Virus record (IMG/VR): IMGVR_UViG_3300047510_003149
Location: 1-27,983 of that record
Strand: one strand, 5' to 3'
DNA length: 27,983 bases
Origin: a virus
Under the pieces are notes generated by a model. It was not told where the DNA came from and did not search any database. It saw nothing but the letters and a program-made list of their open reading frames with translations. The translations under genes were made by a program, and so were the position numbers. This document shows, piece after piece, positions 8,419 to 23,295 of the stretch (positions are counted from its first letter, which is position 1; each line of letters begins with the position of its first letter).

Positions 8419-9098
8419 AAATAGCAATTTTTTATCACATAGCACAAATGGGTTTAGGTGCCTTCGTTTATCAGCAACAAGTTCATCGTTTATATACATC
8501 AGGTATTATTGAAGCAGCAGATTACATTCATTTTGGAGTGAATGGAGATCAAGAACTTTTCAATATCCCAGAAAAAGTGAAAGTTAAATATAACAAAAAA
8601 CAAAATTGGGGAACAGAAAAAGAAACTTTGTTAGATTTGAGAGAATTTTGTAAGAACAATCCAGAATATAAAATTCTTTATTTTCATACAAAAGGAGCAA
8701 CTAAAAGTGAATTATCTGTTCATTCTTGGAGATTAATGATGGAGTATTTTACAATTGATAAATGGCAAGAGTGTATAAAATATCTTGAAAGATACACTTG
8801 TGTTGGTTGTCACTTAGGAACTATTGGACCAAGTATTTTTTCTGATGGTACTTTAATTGAAAATGATAAAACATACGCTTATATGGGAAATTTTTGGTGG
8901 GCAAATGCATCATATATAAATATCTTAAAATCTAGATATGTAGAATCTGAATGTAGAATGGAAAAAGAGAGATGGATTGGAGATAGTGATAGTTGTTATC
9001 CAAAGACTTTATATAATAATTTAGATTTTGATTCGGATCCTTCTAACTTTAATAATTATTCTTATTATTTTAGAGAAAAAGATTATATAAATTATTAA
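8415..9098 (+). CDS. HTKG-motif glycosyltransferase-like protein, copy 1
   Basis: This 227-residue protein starts MKIAIFYHIAQMGLGAF. Its hallmarks are YFHTKGATKS (His91-Thr-Lys-Gly94), SWRLMMEYF, a DCVG-like strand (YTCVGCHLG) and MGNFWWANASYI. This set recurs in uncharacterised phage and bacterial glycan-cluster proteins, and HTKG is also seen in rhamnan-synthesis-F-like proteins. The charged motif in an alpha/beta fold suggests a nucleotide-sugar-dependent transferase, but no classical DxD is obvious. The next gene is a clear paralogue, so this is a tandem duplication. The start codon overlaps the upstream stop (ATGA). Confidence 0.65.
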   Translation: MKIAIFYHIAQMGLGAFVYQQQVHRLYTSGIIEAADYIHFGVNGDQELFNIPEKVKVKYNKKQNWGTEKETLLDLREFCKNNPEYKILYFHTKGATKSELSVHSWRLMMEYFTIDKWQECIKYLERYTCVGCHLGTIGPSIFSDGTLIENDKTYAYMGNFWWANASYINILKSRYVESECRMEKERWIGDSDSCYPKTLYNNLDFDSDPSNFNNYSYYFREKDYINY

Positions 9099-13812: not shown

Positions 13813-14787
13813 ATGTGTAATTTTGTAAAACTTGCATTGGAAAATGGTGGTTCTATTCATCCACTAGTTATTCCTTCCGAATTGACAAATGGAACTGGAA
13901 TTATGAATCCATCTATTTTTTTAGATGGAGATAAAATAATTCTAGTTTTAAGACACGTTAATTATACGTTTTATCACTCCGAAAAAAAACTTTTTCAACA
14001 TCAATGGGGTCCATTGACTTATGTGCATCCTGAAAATGATATGCATCTAAGGACCATAAATTATTATTGTGAACTTGATGAAGACTTTAATATTACTCGT
14101 TACAATAAAATTGATACTTCCAAATTTCCTGATAAAGAACTTTGGGATTTTGTAGGTCTTGAAGATGCAAGAATTTTTAGATGGAATGGAAAATTATATA
14201 TTTCTGGAGTAAGAAGAGATCTTGATACAATTGGAACAGGAAGAATGGAACTTTGTGAAATTGAAGTTCGTGAAGATTCTGTTGTAGAAGTAGATAGATT
14301 TAGAATTCCTCCACCAAATGATCCTAATTCTTATTGTGAAAAAAATTGGATGCCAATTCTTGATAGACCATATCATTATGTAAAATGGAGTAATCCAACA
14401 GAAGTTGTAGAAGTAAATCCAGAAACAGGGCAATCTAAAACTATTTCTTTAGGTCAATGGAATGATCTTCCTAGAGATCTAAGAGGAGGTTCTCAAGTTA
14501 TTCCCTGGAGAGGTTATTACATAGCAATAACTCATGAGGTAGATCTTTTTAATAGTGAAGTTGGAAGAAAAGATGCTGTTTATTACCATAGAATTATTAT
14601 TTGGGATAGAGATTTCAATTTAATACAATGGTCAAAGGAATTTTCCTTGATGTCTGGACATGTAGAGTTTTGTATTGGTCTTAGCCAAAGGGGAGATGAC
14701 TTTTTAATGACCTTTGGATTTCAAGATAATGCTGCATATTTGCTTAAGTTTCCTGAGAGAACAATTATGGAGGTTTTAAATGGATAA
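13813..14787 (+). CDS. GH130-like five-bladed propeller protein
   Basis: The 324-residue protein resembles the five-bladed beta-propeller fold of mannoside phosphorylases (GH130) and related GH43/GH32-like proteins. Seen motifs are GTGIMNPSIFLDGDKIILVLRHVNY near the start, GLEDARIF (residues 115-122; the family usually has GxEDPRI), then KNWMPI, VKWSNPTEVVEV, RGGSQVIPW, YYHRIIIWD and FGFQDNAAYLLKFP. Each blade carries a repeated strand pattern. GH130 enzymes phosphorolyse beta-mannosides, but many viral and bacterial relatives in glycan clusters are uncharacterised and may only bind sugar. No strong Shine-Dalgarno is visible. It overlaps the next gene by 8 bases. Confidence 0.65.
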   Translation: MCNFVKLALENGGSIHPLVIPSELTNGTGIMNPSIFLDGDKIILVLRHVNYTFYHSEKKLFQHQWGPLTYVHPENDMHLRTINYYCELDEDFNITRYNKIDTSKFPDKELWDFVGLEDARIFRWNGKLYISGVRRDLDTIGTGRMELCEIEVREDSVVEVDRFRIPPPNDPNSYCEKNWMPILDRPYHYVKWSNPTEVVEVNPETGQSKTISLGQWNDLPRDLRGGSQVIPWRGYYIAITHEVDLFNSEVGRKDAVYYHRIIIWDRDFNLIQWSKEFSLMSGHVEFCIGLSQRGDDFLMTFGFQDNAAYLLKFPERTIMEVLNG

Positions 14788-17614
14788 TTATTCATTGACT
14801 GATTTATTGTATAAGTTTATAGATGATTCGGAAGATCCAATTAGTAATTTTAATCTTGCTGTTCATTACCATTCTATAGGTCAAACAGCATCTGCACTTT
14901 CTTATTATCTCAGAACTGCTGAGAGAAGTGACGAAAAGATAATGCAGTATCAGTGCTTGTTGTCTGCTGCAAACTGTTTTAAATCTCAGGGAACTAGAAA
15001 TTTTACAGTAAAAAGTCTACTTCAAAATGCTCTTACGACTTGTCCAGAAAGACCAGAAGCATATTATTTGTTGGGTAATTTTTACTTAATAGAACAAAAC
15101 CATCACGAAGCATACTTACTCTTTTCTATTGGTGAAGGTATTTGTAATGACAATCAAGAACCTTTGGATATAGATGTTGAGTATCCTGGTTTTTACTCTC
15201 TTATTATGGGAAAAGCGGAAGCAGCATATCCTTGTGGGTTATGTGAAGAATCTCGCAAATTATTTTTTAAACTTAAAAAGGAGTATTCTTCTATGATGAC
15301 TGAAGAACACAGAAATTATTTACAAGAAAAATTAAGTTCTTTAGGTGCCCATGGTTCGAACTATAAGTTTAGAACATATCATAAAAATGATTATCCAAAA
15401 TTAAGATATAAATTTAGAAGATCTAGATATATTGAGAATAATTTCTCACAAGTATTCCAAGACATGTTTGTTTTGTCGATACTAGATGGTAAAAGAAATG
15501 GAACGTATCTTGAAATCGGTGGTGGATTTCCCTACCATAAAAACAACACAGCATTGTTGGAAAAAGATTTTGGGTGGAAAGGAGTATCAATTGAGTTTAA
15601 TGAAATTTGTGTAAATGATTACAAACAACATAGACCTAATGCAAATGTCTTACATGCAAATGCTCTACTGATTAATTACTCAAAACTAATTAAAGAATAT
15701 TTTAATTCTGAAACAGTCATTGATTATTTGCAACTTGATATTGAACCATCGGCAAATACTTACGAAGCATTACTTTCAATTCCTTTTGATGAGTATAAGT
15801 TTCGGGTAATCACTTATGAGCATGATCATTATGTTGATGTATCAGAGTCTTATAGAGATAAGTCGAGAGAGTATCTTACTAAGATGGGATATCAACTCGT
15901 GGTTACAAATGTTGCTGAAGATGATGAGTCTGCATTTGAAGATTGGTGGGTTCATCCAGATTTGGTTGATAGTAGAATTGTAAAAAAAATGACTTCTATC
16001 ACTGATGAACCACAAAATGCTGCAAAATATATGCTATGTGATAACTTTGATTGGGGAGATATGGATTATGAATATCTATACCTTTTTAATAGGGAAAACT
16101 TCATAGATCACATTTACGAAAAACATTATTCAGTCAAAGAAAATGATATTATTCTAGATATAGGTGCAAATTGTGGTAGTTTTACTTGTTCAGTATTGGA
16201 TAAGAATGTTAAACATGTTTATGCAATAGAACCTTCCAATAAAATTATTAAGGCATTAATTAATAATACAAAAGAAAAACCAGTTACTGTAATTAATAAA
16301 TTGATTGATAGTAATGTAGAAGAAAATAAGTTAATTCCAAATAAAAATGTTTATGTGTATGAACATGAAGGTAATACGGTTAATACGACAACATTTAAAA
16401 ATATTATAGAAGAAAATAATATTACTCAAATTAATTTATTTAAATGTGATTGTGAAGGAGGAGAATATTTTATTTTCACAGAAGAAAATAAAGATTTAAT
16501 TTTCAATACTGTTAAAAATATAGCAATTGAGTTTCATATTTCAGAATCATTATGGGATAATACTATTGAACGATTTAAAATTTTTAGGGATAATTATCTT
16601 TTACCACTTAAAGGAACTAAAAAATTCCACGTATATGAAAGATTTAATGATGTAGATGTTACTGAACATATTTTTGATGATAACTATCTACAGATTTTTA
16701 AAGATTATTGGGATAGAGAAAATGCATATTATGGAAATTTTATGATCTACATTGATTATGAAAAAATGGAAGATAAATTTTGGAATATGACTCCTTGGCC
16801 AACCATGGAGTTTACTACATCAATTCCAAAGAAGGGGTGTGTAGTTGATTGTGTATATTGCCCTCAAAGAATTCTTGAGAGATCTTATGTTGATGAAGAA
16901 AGGTATCTTACCTTAGACAATTTTAAAAGAGCAGTTGATAAACTTCCACAAAATGTGAGAGTAACATTTGCTGGATTCACTGAACCATGGTTGAACAAAG
17001 ATTGTACAGATATGCTATTATATGCTCATGAAAAGGGGCATCCAATCGCAGTATTTACTACTGGCATTGGAATGAAAGTCGAAGATGTATATCGAATTAA
17101 AAACATTCCTTATAATCTAGGTCCCAATGGTAGATTTGTTCTTCATCTTCCAGACAATGAGAGACGAGCAAAGCATCCCATCACTAAAAACTACATTGAA
17201 GTTATTGAAGCATTTAAAGAAGTTCATCATGAAATTCAAGGATTTTATACTATGGCGATGGGTACGGTTCATAATGATGTTAAACATCTTTTCCCAGAAG
17301 CAGTTGTTCCAGCATTCTGGTCTAGAGCAGGTAATTTGGTTGGAGAAGCAATGTTAAAACCAGAACTTCTTAACCTTCAACAAGAATACAAATCAATATA
17401 TCATGGTGAAGAACCAAGAACTTGTGGGTGTGATGAACATTTGTATCACAACATTATGCTACCTAATGGAGATGTTTCTCTGTGCTGTATGGACTATAGT
17501 TTGAAGTTTATTATTGGAAATCTTTTTGAACAATCCTATGAAGAGATTGTACCTAAACCACAGTCTTGTTTTGATATGTGCCGCTTCTGTGAAAATGGAG
17601 TAAAACCTGTATGA
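14780..17614 (+). CDS. TPR - FkbM - FkbM - radical SAM/SPASM fusion enzyme
   Basis: This 944-residue protein joins four modules. Residues ~1-190 are TPR-like helices (ALSYYLRTAER, EAYYLLGNFYLIEQNHHEAY). Residues ~205-415 are an FkbM-type methyltransferase with FSQVFQDMFVLSIL and YLEIGGGFPYHKNN (Glu245). Residues ~425-665 are a second one with LDIGANCGSF (Asp460) and LFKCDCEGGE. Residues ~670-944 are a radical SAM domain with CVVDCVYCPQ (Cys687, Cys691, Cys694) and a C-terminal SPASM/twitch-like set (Cys882, Cys884, Cys902, Cys903, Cys930, Cys934, Cys937) that would hold extra Fe-S clusters. FkbM enzymes O-methylate sugars; radical SAM/SPASM enzymes do radical chemistry on peptides or sugars. 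It overlaps its neighbours by 8 and 4 bases. Confidence 0.85.
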   Translation: MDNYSLTDLLYKFIDDSEDPISNFNLAVHYHSIGQTASALSYYLRTAERSDEKIMQYQCLLSAANCFKSQGTRNFTVKSLLQNALTTCPERPEAYYLLGNFYLIEQNHHEAYLLFSIGEGICNDNQEPLDIDVEYPGFYSLIMGKAEAAYPCGLCEESRKLFFKLKKEYSSMMTEEHRNYLQEKLSSLGAHGSNYKFRTYHKNDYPKLRYKFRRSRYIENNFSQVFQDMFVLSILDGKRNGTYLEIGGGFPYHKNNTALLEKDFGWKGVSIEFNEICVNDYKQHRPNANVLHANALLINYSKLIKEYFNSETVIDYLQLDIEPSANTYEALLSIPFDEYKFRVITYEHDHYVDVSESYRDKSREYLTKMGYQLVVTNVAEDDESAFEDWWVHPDLVDSRIVKKMTSITDEPQNAAKYMLCDNFDWGDMDYEYLYLFNRENFIDHIYEKHYSVKENDIILDIGANCGSFTCSVLDKNVKHVYAIEPSNKIIKALINNTKEKPVTVINKLIDSNVEENKLIPNKNVYVYEHEGNTVNTTTFKNIIEENNITQINLFKCDCEGGEYFIFTEENKDLIFNTVKNIAIEFHISESLWDNTIERFKIFRDNYLLPLKGTKKFHVYERFNDVDVTEHIFDDNYLQIFKDYWDRENAYYGNFMIYIDYEKMEDKFWNMTPWPTMEFTTSIPKKGCVVDCVYCPQRILERSYVDEERYLTLDNFKRAVDKLPQNVRVTFAGFTEPWLNKDCTDMLLYAHEKGHPIAVFTTGIGMKVEDVYRIKNIPYNLGPNGRFVLHLPDNERRAKHPITKNYIEVIEAFKEVHHEIQGFYTMAMGTVHNDVKHLFPEAVVPAFWSRAGNLVGEAMLKPELLNLQQEYKSIYHGEEPRTCGCDEHLYHNIMLPNGDVSLCCMDYSLKFIIGNLFEQSYEEIVPKPQSCFDMCRFCENGVKPV

Positions 17615-17889: not shown

Positions 17890-20889
17890 ATGGAGAAAAT
17901 AAGGTCTATTTTTGGAAAACTTCTTAGGGATAAATCTATTCAATCTATAGTTCAAATAGGATCTAATTATGGTGATGATGAACTAGCGGATTATATCAAA
18001 AGTAATTTATCTAGCTTAGATTTTGCACTTTTTGTTGAGGCAAATCAAATTCATATTCCTAGATTAAAAGAATGTTATAAGGATTATCCAAATGCCATCA
18101 TAGAAAACATTGCAGTAAAAGTTCCAGATAATCCTAATAAAGAATTAACAATTTATTATCATACCAATGATGCCCCTCAATATGGAATTGCTTCTTGTAA
18201 TATAGAACACATTTATAAGCATATGGAGTTTGTTCCATACCTTAAAGATGGTGAAATTAAATCTTTTACTGTTCCTTGTATTACAATGGAAGATTTATTT
18301 GAAAAATATCAAATTAAAGAACTTGATTGGCTTTTATTAGATGTTGAGGGTATTGATGCTGAATTACTACTCTCCTTTGATTGGAAAAAATACAAGATCA
18401 AAAGAGTCGAATTTGAACACTTGCACCTGGGAAAACATAAAGAACAGATTCGAAAGATGTTTCTTGAAATGGGATACATTGAAAGAAATTCATTGCACGA
18501 ATATGATTGGTGCTTCCAACTCCCATCCGATTTAAGTGATGAGAATAAGTTACAAGGTATTCCCAGTATCCATTGCATAAGTCTAGAAGAATCTAAAGAA
18601 AGAAGAGAGTTCTTTGTTAACCAGTTCAAAAAATATGGTGTAGAAGATAAAATCAGTTTTTATATCTCTGAAAGATTTGGAGATGTAAAAGAAACTTTAG
18701 AATTTGAAGAAGGATTTGAAGACAAATCTTGTGATGGAAACAAATCTATTTTTGTTGCTCATCTTAAGAACATTAAAAATTGGTATGATAACACCACTGA
18801 AGAGTATGCTTTGTTCTGCGAAGATGATTTATCTTTACACCCAGTAAAGTATTGGAACTTTACTTGGGAAGATCTAATGGAGCATCTCCCAAGTGATTGG
18901 GAATGTGTTCAGTTAACATACACTGGAGATACTTTCCATGAGGAATTGATTCGTCTTCAGAAAAGAAGATGGTACTTCTGGGGTATTCAAGCGTTTTTAG
19001 TGAAGAGAGAGTACGCTAAGAAACTTTTAGATACTTATTATCGCCATGATAGAATTATCATGAAGATTCAAGATCCTGAACCATATTATTATAAAGGATA
19101 TGATTTCTTTCCAGACTTTCACAGATATCCTTATGCTGAAAGTCTGCTTCTAAGAGGAATTGGTAATGTATATGCTCTTCCTATCTTAGCGGAGGATGTA
19201 AATTTTCCTGCTACATTCTTCTTAAACAATCCAGATTTTTATAAAGAGAAGCAAAAACCAGGGCATTTTGAATCTTACAGAATTGCTCTTAATTGGTGGA
19301 AAGAAAAAGGACACAAAAAATCAATTAAAGAGTTGACAACTATGATTAAAATTATTGATTACTTCCCATACTTTGATGAAACTGGTAGAGAACTTTTAGA
19401 CCTGAGAGTTAATTTGTTAAAAGATCATGTTGATCAATTTATTATTTGTGAATCAAATAAGACTCATAGTGGAATTCCTACTAAACCAGGACTTAGAGAT
19501 GCAATAAAATATTATAACTTACCAGAAGAAAAAATTCGTATTATTGATCTTGATATTCCTGATGAAGAACATCTTGTCGTGGAAGAAATAGATCGTTTAA
19601 ATTGTTATGATGGTAATGACCAAGATATTAATTCTCTGAGAGCAAGAGTTAGAGAACGAATGCAAAAAGATGCACTTCTTCAGGTATTGGATGATTATGA
19701 TGATGATTGTATGATCATTCATAGTGATAGTGATGAAATTATAAATCCAATTTACATTAAGGATATTAAAAATACTCTCTTGAATCATCCAAATGGATAT
19801 GTTACAATTCCATTATCTTATCATGAAGGTCGAGCAGACTTAAGAGTGTACGATAGGAATACTGGGAACCCAGTTTATTGGGGTATGTTCGCTACGAATA
19901 GATCAGTTTTTAAAAAAACAACACCAATTCGTATGAGGTCTGATAAAGAAGTTCCATCCGAATTTTATATTCTTTATATGATTAATTCGGATGGAAAAGA
20001 AATTGATGAACTGGGATGGCACTTCTCTTGGATGGGTGATTCTAAAAGGAAATCTATTAAGGCAAAATCATTTGCACATTATAATGATAATCTTCCATTC
20101 TTATCTAACTCTAGGTATGAAAATGAAAACCTATCAAAGACTTACTCTGCAGGATCTATACCACCATGTGGAAATGTGAATTATATTTTGAAGAAATATC
20201 CTATTGAAAATCTCCCCCAAATAATGATTGAGACTCCAAGAATGAGAGAATTTTTCTTATCTGAAAACCCAAGTTATAAACTTTCAGTTTCAAAAGAACC
20301 GAAAACTTCAATTATTGTTTGTGAGAATTTTTACGAAGATCCATATTCTGTAAGAGATTATGCTCTTAGTTTGGAGTATGAAGAAAGTGATTATCACAGG
20401 GGAAGAAGAACTCATGAACCTCATGTCTTTCCAGGAACAAAAGAAAAGTTTGAACAACTTTTAGGAAAAAAGATTACTCGTTGGACAGAAACTTATGGTA
20501 TGTGTGGTAGATTTCAATACTGCACTGCAGAGGATGCAATTGTTTATCACGGAGATGCTCAGCAATGGGCAGCAGTTATATATCTAACTCCAGATGCTCC
20601 ACATGAAGCGGGAACATCTTTATTAAGGCATAAAAGAACAGGAGCTAGACATTGTAGCGATCCTAATATTTGGGAAGCGTGGAAAGATACTGCACCTACA
20701 GGTTTATACTTAGATGGAACTCCTTGGGATGAGATTGATAAAGTTGGAAATGTCTTTAACAGATTAATAATTTGGGATGGTCATTGTCCACATGCTGCAT
20801 CAAAATATTTTGGATTCACTAAAGAAACATCAAGACTCTTTCATATTTTCTTCTTTGATACTGATGATACTCCTTCGTGGGTTAGATAA
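17890..20889 (+). CDS. FkbM - GT25 - GT17 - DUF6445 four-domain fusion enzyme
   Basis: This 999-residue protein has four apparent catalytic modules. Residues ~1-215 are FkbM-like methyltransferase (IVQIGSNYGDDELADYI, DWLLLDVEGIDAELL with Asp151). Residues ~222-470 are like GT25/LPS glycosyltransferase (HCISLEESKERREFF, LFCEDDLSL with Glu311-Asp313). Residues ~485-790 resemble GT17 N-acetylglucosaminyltransferases (IIDYFPYFDETGRELLDLR, FIICESNKTHSG, HSDSDEI at Asp613-Glu616, GWHFSWMG). Residues ~805-999 look like DUF6445, a 2OG-Fe(II)-type double-stranded beta-helix: YHGDAQQWAAVIYLTP (His887, Asp889), CPHAASKYFG (His968), SRLFHIFFFD (Arg982). Together they could methylate, add two sugars and oxidise one glycan. 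Confidence 0.85.
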   Translation: MEKIRSIFGKLLRDKSIQSIVQIGSNYGDDELADYIKSNLSSLDFALFVEANQIHIPRLKECYKDYPNAIIENIAVKVPDNPNKELTIYYHTNDAPQYGIASCNIEHIYKHMEFVPYLKDGEIKSFTVPCITMEDLFEKYQIKELDWLLLDVEGIDAELLLSFDWKKYKIKRVEFEHLHLGKHKEQIRKMFLEMGYIERNSLHEYDWCFQLPSDLSDENKLQGIPSIHCISLEESKERREFFVNQFKKYGVEDKISFYISERFGDVKETLEFEEGFEDKSCDGNKSIFVAHLKNIKNWYDNTTEEYALFCEDDLSLHPVKYWNFTWEDLMEHLPSDWECVQLTYTGDTFHEELIRLQKRRWYFWGIQAFLVKREYAKKLLDTYYRHDRIIMKIQDPEPYYYKGYDFFPDFHRYPYAESLLLRGIGNVYALPILAEDVNFPATFFLNNPDFYKEKQKPGHFESYRIALNWWKEKGHKKSIKELTTMIKIIDYFPYFDETGRELLDLRVNLLKDHVDQFIICESNKTHSGIPTKPGLRDAIKYYNLPEEKIRIIDLDIPDEEHLVVEEIDRLNCYDGNDQDINSLRARVRERMQKDALLQVLDDYDDDCMIIHSDSDEIINPIYIKDIKNTLLNHPNGYVTIPLSYHEGRADLRVYDRNTGNPVYWGMFATNRSVFKKTTPIRMRSDKEVPSEFYILYMINSDGKEIDELGWHFSWMGDSKRKSIKAKSFAHYNDNLPFLSNSRYENENLSKTYSAGSIPPCGNVNYILKKYPIENLPQIMIETPRMREFFLSENPSYKLSVSKEPKTSIIVCENFYEDPYSVRDYALSLEYEESDYHRGRRTHEPHVFPGTKEKFEQLLGKKITRWTETYGMCGRFQYCTAEDAIVYHGDAQQWAAVIYLTPDAPHEAGTSLLRHKRTGARHCSDPNIWEAWKDTAPTGLYLDGTPWDEIDKVGNVFNRLIIWDGHCPHAASKYFGFTKETSRLFHIFFFDTDDTPSWVR

Positions 20890-22554: not shown

Positions 22555-22564
22555 ATTCACAGAT

Positions 22565-22593
22565 GCCGGGAAAAAAATCCCGGCAATTTTTTT
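22565..22593 (+). terminator. Rho-independent terminator
   Basis: Stem GCCGGGA (22565-22571)/TCCCGGC (22578-22584) with a 6-A loop, then AA and seven Ts. This is GC-rich in very AT-rich surroundings, 10 bases after the stop at 22554. It ends the glutaredoxin-to-22554 block and isolates the following promoter. Confidence 0.92.
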
Positions 22594-22615: not shown

Positions 22616-22631
22616 TGTAACAAAAGTTACA
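22616..22631 (+). promoter_or_regulatory. NtcA-type binding site candidate
   Basis: The perfect palindrome TGTAACAAAAGTTACA contains GTA-N8-TAC, the binding consensus of NtcA, the cyanobacterial nitrogen regulator activated by 2-oxoglutarate. It sits between a terminator and a promoter. The distance from TAC to the -10 box is 31 bases, whereas the classic activator position gives about 22, so the mode of action is uncertain. The bare consensus is expected by chance several times in a window of this size and composition; the full 6-bp arms and the position raise the odds. Confidence 0.5.
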
Positions 22632-22638
22632 TTCAGAC

Positions 22639-22667
22639 TTGCTAAATATTAATACAGGGTCTATAAT
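22639..22667 (+). promoter_or_regulatory. Sigma-70-type promoter for the riboswitch transcript
   Basis: TTGCTA (22639-22644), a 17-base spacer, then TATAAT (22662-22667). The -10 box is perfect and the spacing optimal. Transcription would start near 22673-22675, exactly at the first base-paired arm of the riboswitch. Host RNA polymerase could use it without phage factors. Confidence 0.75.
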
Positions 22668-22674
22668 GACCTTA

Positions 22675-22760
22675 CGTTCATCAGAGGAAACTCTGACGCA
22701 AGTAGGACGGCGGAACGGATCGTTCATCCCAATGGGACGCAAACCGCCTGAAGGAACGGG
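22675..22760 (+). ncRNA. Glutamine riboswitch (downstream-peptide/glnA type), doubled core
   Basis: The region carries the conserved elements of glutamine-binding RNAs: CGTTCAT (22675-22681), hairpin CAGAG-GAAA-CTCTG (22682-22695), ACGCAAGTAGG (22696-22706) and CCTGAAGGAACG (22747-22758). CGTTC pairs with GAACG as P1. A second CGTTCAT-CCCAATGGG-ACGCAA lies at 22721-22742, and a GGCGGAACG at 22709-22717 could close the first unit, so it reads as two overlapping modules. Alternatively GGCGG (22709-22713)/CCGCC (22744-22748) forms P3 of one large aptamer. The GGAG ribosome-binding site at 22782 and ATG at 22792 follow. The downstream-peptide class is known from cyanobacteria and their phages, upstream of short ORFs. 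Confidence 0.8.
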
Positions 22761-22791
22761 GCCTAAAAATCTCATTTCTTTGGAGCAAAAA

Positions 22792-22929
22792 ATGGCAAAG
22801 GTAGTTTATCGTGGAATCGAATATGATACTCAAAAGCGTCTTGAGTATCAGCAACAAATGATGCAACAACCTCAACAGTACAACGAAACCTATCGTGGTG
22901 TTAAGTTTACTAAGGAGGGTCACAAGTGA
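22792..22929 (+). CDS. DUF4278-like microprotein under riboswitch control
   Basis: The ATG at 22792 follows GGAG by six bases and gives 45 residues. An in-frame upstream extension runs through the riboswitch and is rejected. The sequence has two copies of a YRGxxY/F motif (VVYRGIEYDTQ near the start, ETYRGVKFTKEG near the end) separated by a Gln-rich helix (YQQQMMQQPQQY). YRGV-type motifs are typical of DUF4278 proteins of cyanobacteria and their phages. It fits the short peptide encoded after downstream-peptide RNAs. A link to nitrogen or glutamine metabolism of the infected cell is inferred from the regulation only. Confidence 0.75.
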   Translation: MAKVVYRGIEYDTQKRLEYQQQMMQQPQQYNETYRGVKFTKEGHK

Positions 22930-23027
22930 TGAAGAAACTCAATGTACTTCAACTCATTAAAGAGAAGAAGCAAAAAGAAGATCGTCGTCACCAAGCACAA
23001 TTAGCACAATTAATTGGTGCAAAATGA
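22929..23027 (+). CDS. 32-residue basic microprotein
   Basis: A 32-codon ORF starts with the ATG of a TGATG overlap, nine bases after GGAGG (22915-22919), one of the best ribosome-binding sites in the window. The product is MKKLNVLQLIKEKKQKEDRR followed by HQAQLAQLIGAK. It is strongly basic and predicted as one amphipathic helix. Function is unknown. Coupled overlaps on both sides support translation. Confidence 0.6.
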   Translation: MKKLNVLQLIKEKKQKEDRRHQAQLAQLIGAK

Positions 23028-23113
23028 TGGCACAACTACTCATTTCTACCACTGCTGGAATTGCATTAACAACTATTCTGTTATCTGCATATATTCAGTG
23101 GTTGTATAAGTAA
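23024..23113 (+). CDS. 29-residue transmembrane microprotein
   Basis: The ORF starts at ATGATG, overlapping the previous stop; either Met could be used (29 or 28 residues). The product is essentially one membrane helix: MAQLLISTTAGIALTTILLS then AYIQWLYK. It ends by sharing an A with the ATG of the next gene. Small single-span proteins like this are common in phages and photosynthetic complexes; no specific homologue is recognised. Confidence 0.55.
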   Translation: MMAQLLISTTAGIALTTILLSAYIQWLYK

Positions 23114-23280
23114 TGGATTATCATTACCATTGGGATGATGTAGACAAAGACAACAGACCACCTGCTTGCTACCAACTAACATATAGAGGGTGTAAATATT
23201 GGTCTTGTTATCGAATACATCTCCGAGAGTGGTTTGATCAGGTTTTAAATATAGAACCAATATTTAACAGGAAGGGTTGA
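23113..23280 (+). CDS. 55-residue DUF4278-like microprotein
   Basis: The ORF starts at TAATG overlap with the upstream stop. The product begins MDYHYHWDDVDKDNRPPACY and has LTYRGCKYWSCYRIHLREW, with a YRGxxY motif like that of the 45-residue riboswitch-controlled protein. Aromatic residues, three Cys and several His make metal binding conceivable. Its stop codon lies in the loop of a terminator hairpin. Confidence 0.6.
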   Translation: MDYHYHWDDVDKDNRPPACYQLTYRGCKYWSCYRIHLREWFDQVLNIEPIFNRKG

Positions 23281-23295
23281 TCCCTTCCTTTTTTT
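23269..23295 (+). terminator. Rho-independent terminator overlapping the stop codon
   Basis: Stem AGGAAGGG (23269-23276)/CCCTTCCT (23282-23289), a 5-base loop TTGAT, then a run of Ts to 23295. The TGA stop of the 55-residue gene is in the loop. It ends the NtcA/riboswitch transcript. Confidence 0.88.

Follow-up and report, generated by a model that had tools for sequence, protein, structure and literature searches.

Introduction

Glutamine riboswitches of class I (glnA, RF01739) and class II (Downstream-peptide, RF01704) work as ON switches in cyanophage hosts (PMC6316151). In the solved glutamine-I aptamer a long-range pair closes P1, and contacts to the ligand are made by C1:G59, G22 and C58 (PMC6698751). 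Among the host genes concerned, gifB/IF17 is controlled by NtcA and a glutamine riboswitch; the N-terminal part of this glutamine synthetase inactivating factor, IF17, is a DUF4278 domain, reported to be dispensable for inhibition but stabilising, and Prochlorococcus PMM1846 combines all three, NtcA motif, glutamine riboswitch and DUF4278 (PMC6316151). Glutamine riboswitches (PMC9964418) and NtcA sites, which are frequent in cyanomyophages (PMC3037559), were already known in cyanophages. Side-by-side glutamine doublets have also been described (PMC9481103, PMC2864571).

The DNA analysed here was a stretch of 27,983 nt from a virus (IMG/VR record IMGVR_UViG_3300047510_003149; hereafter the window), for which a first-pass annotation had pointed to an NtcA-type palindrome, a promoter and a glutamine-riboswitch-like leader in front of a 45-aa ORF, between two terminators. 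All of these elements were found. The stacking of NtcA and glutamine control, which the first-pass annotation had proposed, was already described for PMM1846 (PMC6316151); like gifB/IF17 and PMM1846, the locus joins NtcA motif, glutamine riboswitch and DUF4278-type protein, and it differs from them in that those two are genes of hosts and have aptamers of type 1 or type 2. The known doublets also have two glutamine cores per leader, but these are consecutive and separable, whereas here one helix is common to both cores and neither is complete alone.

Results

The nearest relatives of the window were the Synechococcus T4-like phages S-SRM01, S-SKS1 and DSL-LC02, and its gene order, with thyX and phoH downstream of the microprotein operon, was the same as in S-PM2. 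The operon was flanked on both sides by hairpins on the + strand, as had been proposed: an intrinsic terminator with an 8-pair stem and T tract closing the upstream operon (22564-22585), and a terminator-like hairpin of the microprotein operon itself (23269-23289). The 45-aa peptide was encoded at 22792-22929 (+). Besides this gene, the operon contained three further microprotein ORFs on the + strand within 22929-23280, namely a 32-aa ORF (22929-23027) overlapping the stop of the 45-aa ORF as ATGA, a 29-aa hydrophobic ORF (23024-23113), and a 55-aa ORF (23113-23280) with a second YRG motif, LTYRGCKYW, and without Pfam match. Elsewhere in the window, two large modular proteins (14780-17614 and 17890-20889) gave FkbM methyltransferase, radical SAM/SPASM, TPR and glycosyltransferase-like matches.

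The 45-aa DUF4278-like (YRG) peptide matched the PHROG profile phrog_5049 with E 1.5e-11, and scored 19.9 bits (E 0.001) with Pfam DUF4278 (PF14105), below the cut-off of 25.3. Its relatives shared Y6, R7, G8 and Y11, and a YRG-motif ORF lay at the equivalent position in 173/176 relatives, so that the DUF4278-like nature of the target was borne out. No PDB relative of the peptide was found, and its structure model was of low confidence (pLDDT 66). Sequence rows taken from annotated records were kept out of the structure modelling. Since the N-terminal part of IF17 is reportedly dispensable for inhibition, a function of the phage peptide as glutamine synthetase inhibitor is speculation.

Upstream of the leader, the palindrome TGTAACAAAAGTTACA (22616-22631) contained the NtcA-type site GTAACAAAAGTTAC (22617-22630, no strand), which has the GTAN8TAC half sites of an NtcA-activated promoter. 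Across the relatives, the comparison that had been suggested for this motif was carried out: GTAN8TAC was kept in 93 of the 176 loci, 54-64 nt and mostly 58-60 nt upstream of the aptamer, versus 0.67 expected, which confirmed a palindrome at a fixed place. It was followed by a sigma-70-like promoter (22639-22667, +) with -35 TTGCTA at 22639-22644 (4/6), a 17-nt spacer and -10 TATAAT at 22662-22667 (6/6). The promoter claimed earlier was therefore present, but "optimal" was too strong and it was graded good, as only 4/6 of the -35 box agreed. TTGAC(T)...TATAAT occurred at the equivalent position in most relatives. In classic NtcA promoters, the site is separated from the -10 box by about 22-24 nt. 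The window had 31 nt between GTAN8TAC and the -10 box, in agreement with the caveat of the first-pass annotation that the site lies about 9 bases too far away. The -10 box was also surrounded by a dyad, GGTC-TATAAT-GACC (22658-22671, no strand). Arms of at least 5 were found in 122/159 relatives, and the dyad was present at 72/90 of these promoters, compared with 45/360 when the remaining TTGAC promoters on those contigs were counted. The arms of relatives fell into families such as TGTGTTA/TAACACA, TGTCATG/CATGACA and GGTATG/CATACC, and the dyads are perhaps operators for a repressor having several specificities.

The leader held two CGUUCA...GGAACG units, with CGUUCA at 22675 and 22721 and GGAACG at 22712 and 22753. 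The loop-E halves were split between them, AAGUA being found in unit 1 only and GAA in unit 2 only, and the sequence after AAGUA was complementary to the sequence before GAA; the canonical aptamer therefore opens with the first CGUUC and closes with the last GAACG. The contents of its P3 loop, GGAACG-GAU-CGUUCAUC-P2-GACGCAAA, were the same core in permuted order. Comparison with the relatives showed that the leader (22675-22759, +) is one nested RNA made of two glutamine-I-type cores, interlocked on a common P3, and that the outer lobe A is of canonical order, while the inner lobe B is circularly permuted and takes the place of the P3 loop.

In the predicted lobe A (all positions on the + strand), the P1 strands CGUUC (22675-22679) and GAACG (22754-22758) paired with each other, P2 (P2a, 22681-22696) was formed by 22681-22686 and 22691-22696, and X at 22699 made a long-range pair with 22759. 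The AAGUA strand of loop-E (22700-22704), opposite GAA at 22750-22752, matched the glutamine-I consensus (PMC5393176). The 5' strand GGACGG of the common P3 (22705-22710) paired with CCGCCU (22744-22749), the 3' strand and the GAA of J3/1 together covering 22744-22752. Lobe B comprised a P1 hairpin (22713-22725; GAACG 22713-22717, GAU, CGUUC 22721-22725), Y at 22718 in a long-range pair with X at 22740, and P2 (P2b, 22727-22737) of the form UCCC-AAU-GGGA, the loop of which holds a whole ORF in relatives. The P1, junction and X-Y bases with which solved aptamers build their glutamine pocket were kept in both lobes; the equivalent of X-Y in those aptamers is the pair G23-C60. As lobe B was without the loop-E strands, binding by this lobe is less sure. 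The glutamine-riboswitch-like RNA noticed before was thus of glutamine-I type with every known pocket position, but the single glnA-type element turned out to be two lobes.

The topology was evaluated with 187 distinct RNAs, obtained with search patterns that left X (the base in CGXAA) and Y (the base after GGAACG) free. The nested fold predicts that X pairs with Y of the same lobe. X_A paired with Y2 in 187/187 RNAs (165 C-G, 22 G-C) with zero exceptions, and X_B with Y1 in 184/187 (179 C-G, 5 G-C) with 3 exceptions, while the side-by-side pairing of X_A with Y1 failed in 25/187. In a 57-row alignment, nested X-Y pairs were formed in 57/57 rows, compared with 80.7% for side-by-side pairs. On the tree, X_A and Y2 had 9 changes apiece and X_B and Y1 had 4, and partners always changed in step; the independent change pairs were all concordant, with only 4 (lobe A) and 2 (lobe B) on supported branches. 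The common P3 varied as well: AU 24, GC 24 and GU 7 were counted for the first of its pairs, the last one occurred as G-C, U-A and A-U, and the observed pairing was reached in 0/5000 trials of partner permutation; conserved A.C mismatches were also carried by P3. Compensatory changes were found in 4/4 counted pairs of P2a, and P2b covaried among relatives. P1 gives no covariation evidence, because CGUUC and GGAACG were invariant and part of the search patterns. The double-lobe pattern was present in 13 annotated phage loci that were reached by DNA or protein similarity and not by the pattern, including S-PM2, S-SKS1, Bellamy, S-CAM7, S-SSM4, ACG-2014b, ACG-2014d, S-SZBM1, S-SRM01, DSL-LC02 and P-SSM2. 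The X-Y bases of the window are compatible with either topology, and its fold therefore rests on the relatives together with folding, in which the free minimum (-33.1 kcal/mol) contained an anti-SD helix and forcing P1 of lobe A alone gave the full nested fold at -30.9 kcal/mol.

With covariance models, the search proposed by the first-pass annotation gave matches to both Rfam families, but both were below the cut-offs. RF01739 matched 22719-22762 with 32.6 bits (E 2.4e-5, 401 bases searched) against a gathering score of 35, and this match combined the inner lobe's 5' half with the outer lobe's 3' half. RF01704 gave 24.9 bits against 33, and membership in glutamine-II, a pseudoknot class with its own P2, was rejected. 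The P1 CGUUC/GAACG, P2 and three-way junction of RF01739 were all present, lobe A alone had the loop-E (AGUA/GAA) at the P3 base, and the long-range X-Y pair was found in both lobes. The RNA was classified as a glutamine-I variant and not as a plain member, because 32.6 bits is below 35 and 14/15 tested interlocked leaders missed the cut-off too. A plain Rfam scan of the window, which returned nothing at gathering level, is misleading here, the permuted insert being more than the model can bridge. A covariance model, R1, was built from ORF-less interlocked forms; it scored such forms at 74-100 bits (its own alignment rows included), single-lobe RNAs at no more than 37 bits, and ORF-bearing interlocked forms low, at 21-32 bits.

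The strand that builds the end of P3, the loop-E strand and the start of P1 of lobe A (CUGAAGGAA, 22748-22756, +) was shown to have an alternative partner in the Shine-Dalgarno (SD) region (22775-22785, +), which comprises UUUCUUUGG (22775-22783) and the SD GGAG (22782-22785). In the predicted free fold, 22748-22756 paired with 22775-22783 and covered part of the SD, competing with lobe A. The junction pair of this anti-SD helix was A-U in 59, G-C in 41, G-U in 34 and A-C in 0 of the relatives, and total pairing was 10.8, compared with a maximum of 10.3 in partner-permuted sets. The helix found in 45/179 leaders stopped short of the tested junction base, and mean SD accessibility in simple folding barely moved, from 0.30 to 0.34. 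Because lobe A and the anti-SD helix are mutually exclusive, glutamine should turn translation on.

Among 232 distinct interlocked RNAs, 67 had two short P2 loops, and 3 were cut by contig ends; an ORF occupied the loop of lobe B in 117, that of lobe A in 11 and each of the two in 34; these shares are no fair census, because one search pattern required ATG after the lobe-B stem. Complete ORFs in one or both P2 loops were thus carried by about 70% of the relatives sampled, and the window represents the ORF-less form. The lobe-B loop accommodated 140-245 nt. Its ORFs started just within the P2 stem in 113/120 cases and stopped at one aptamer position, GAC-UGA/UAA-AGG in the junction, and aptamer bases encoded the C-terminal WDAND or DAKAD. 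The frame was kept in 119/120 with a median dN/dS of 0.19, and the P2b stem was kept in 118/120 ORF forms with compensatory changes. The inner proteins belonged to phrog_504, phrog_13397 or no family; the main family had invariant Cys12 and Cys47. A fold search with a model of the inner protein, a helical hairpin (pLDDT 80), gave no significant match. A GAG loop of P1-B, which gives the SD-like AACGGAG, was found in 74/120 ORF forms versus 0/67 hairpin forms, and on the tree this association was concordant, short of significance. ORFs in the lobe-A P2 loop were observed at L261, L272, L359 and 42 other loci, several of them ending in AAG-UAA, within loop-E. As the ORFs in the loops have their ends within the aptamer, they should not be translated while the aptamer is folded, nor the reverse; with a ribosome on the inner ORF, P3 and the anti-SD strand would be covered, and inner translation and outer control are therefore probably coupled.

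A search with R1 over 300 host-family genomes, with strict filters and a model from ORF-less forms, scored no interlocked aptamer, while RF01739 was found in 99 of the same genomes. The absence from hosts is provisional, because the filters were strict and ORF-bearing forms score low with R1. A host origin of the interlocked form was considered and provisionally rejected, the sole R1 match (42 bits) being an ordinary glnA site. A pattern scan of genome contigs yielded mostly chance matches, and the lone Prochlorococcus contig obtained (L359) had ORFs in both loops and phage-like DNA by appearance.

Discussion

The locus is best explained jointly by a nested two-core fold, an anti-SD ON switch for the DUF4278-like peptide and an NtcA input, to which we assign a probability of roughly 0.77, the ligand effects being predicted. 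Glutamine in one or both pockets would favour the lobed form, which would free the SD so that the peptide is translated; NtcA may add a 2-oxoglutarate input at the promoter. In relatives the P2 loops serve as sites for additional small genes.

Lobe A agrees with glutamine-I (RF01739) in P1, P2, loop-E, P3 and X-Y, and the DUF4278-type genes downstream and predicted ON logic are also alike; the unlike features are the permuted second core in place of the P3 loop, the score below the Rfam cut-off and the ORFs in the P2 loops of relatives. Glutamine-II (RF01704) has small DUF4278 target peptides and a near-identical pocket, and it resembles lobe B in having no loop-E of the glutamine-I kind, but it is a pseudoknot with its own P2, and the window falls below its cut-off (24.9 versus 33 bits). 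Guanidine-II and tandem glycine riboswitches likewise have two binding sites coupled within a single RNA, by loop-loop contact or between separate aptamers; here coupling would depend on permutation on a common helix. Group I introns are structured RNAs hosting genes, with ORFs in peripheral loops; those are ribozymes with homing endonucleases, whereas here an aptamer holds proteins of 50-70 aa whose codons double as aptamer sequence. The coupled sites of guanidine-II are also treated in PMC6698751.

The alternatives concern the ligand sites, the topology and the promoter. It is possible, though we lean against it, that the fold is interlocked and glutamine is bound by lobe A alone, with lobe B as a structural cap or ORF-carrying site. 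Lobe B is without loop-E, its P2 loop accepts 140-245 nt, and its P1, a local hairpin, is stable and may not depend on a ligand; against this, lobe B retains the pocket positions, its X-Y pair covaries (184/187), and an almost identical pocket exists in glutamine-II, which is without that loop-E (PMC6698751). A side-by-side doublet of two ordinary glutamine-I aptamers, each with its own P1 and giving a steeper response, is highly improbable: such doublets are common (157 were counted in PMC9481103) and genuine ones occurred in other contigs here (L009, L020), but AAGUA is limited to unit 1 and GAA to unit 2, P3 pairs between units, and side-by-side X-Y pairs fail in 25/187 RNAs and 19% of aligned cells. 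Genuine doublets also scored 50-63 bits with Rfam, whereas 14/15 interlocked forms were missed at the gathering cut-off. Two complete separable aptamers were ruled out by the P3 and X-Y pairs crossing the units. Variant riboswitches with altered ligands exist, and the RNA could sense a different, glutamine-like ligand; this is very improbable, as the pocket positions agree with glutamine-I and the genes downstream are from the family that follows host glutamine riboswitches.

At the promoter, the GTAN8TAC site may belong to a factor other than NtcA, or NtcA may act as a repressor here, which we consider unlikely. The site lies 31 nt from the -10 box and just 5' of the -35 box, about one helical turn beyond classic activator sites, and gif genes of hosts are repressed by NtcA (PMC6316151), but half sites and position are strongly conserved (93/176) in phages whose hosts bear NtcA.

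Beyond the nested two-core fold with its ON switch and NtcA input, the leader may represent a new riboswitch architecture, a reading for and against which we see even odds. It would have two cooperative pockets, with canonical and permuted aptamers on one helix, and would also be a gene chassis in cyanophages, in which ribosome traffic would be read out by ligand binding and vice versa, with up to 2 complete ORFs in the P2 loops, starts usually at the stem and the lobe-B stop in the binding junction. If true, this would be a natural case of an aptamer that was duplicated, permuted and threaded through itself, with two coupled sites and no need of two domains. That protein genes can lie within the loops of an aptamer is also shown, and cooperativity, co-translational folding and nitrogen sensing in infection become directly testable on an RNA of about 90 nt. 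Neither the interlocked permuted architecture nor an ORF within an aptamer loop was found in the literature searched, which did not cover the original glutamine papers, and priority is uncertain in both cases. The element is present in the well-studied S-PM2, P-SSM2, S-SSM4, S-SKS1 and Bellamy, and is mostly overlooked there by standard Rfam annotation; in one survey no riboswitches were reported for these phages (PMC7029224).

Several observations were made on other contigs. The same DUF4278-type gene stood behind a single canonical glutamine-I aptamer in L003, L013, L030 and L040; single and interlocked forms therefore replace each other before orthologous genes. The contig L003 also carried a PhotoRC-II RNA (8471-8565). 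Genuine side-by-side glutamine doublets were found in L009, L020, L071, L092 and L098, which are other marine phage contigs. In L072, the leader was interrupted after the GGAACG of unit 1 by an ORF with a GIY-YIG endonuclease-like start, and the second lobe was missing there. In L128 (phage S-B68), the public record has an antisense protein across the riboswitch (1457-1666), which is probably a false gene.
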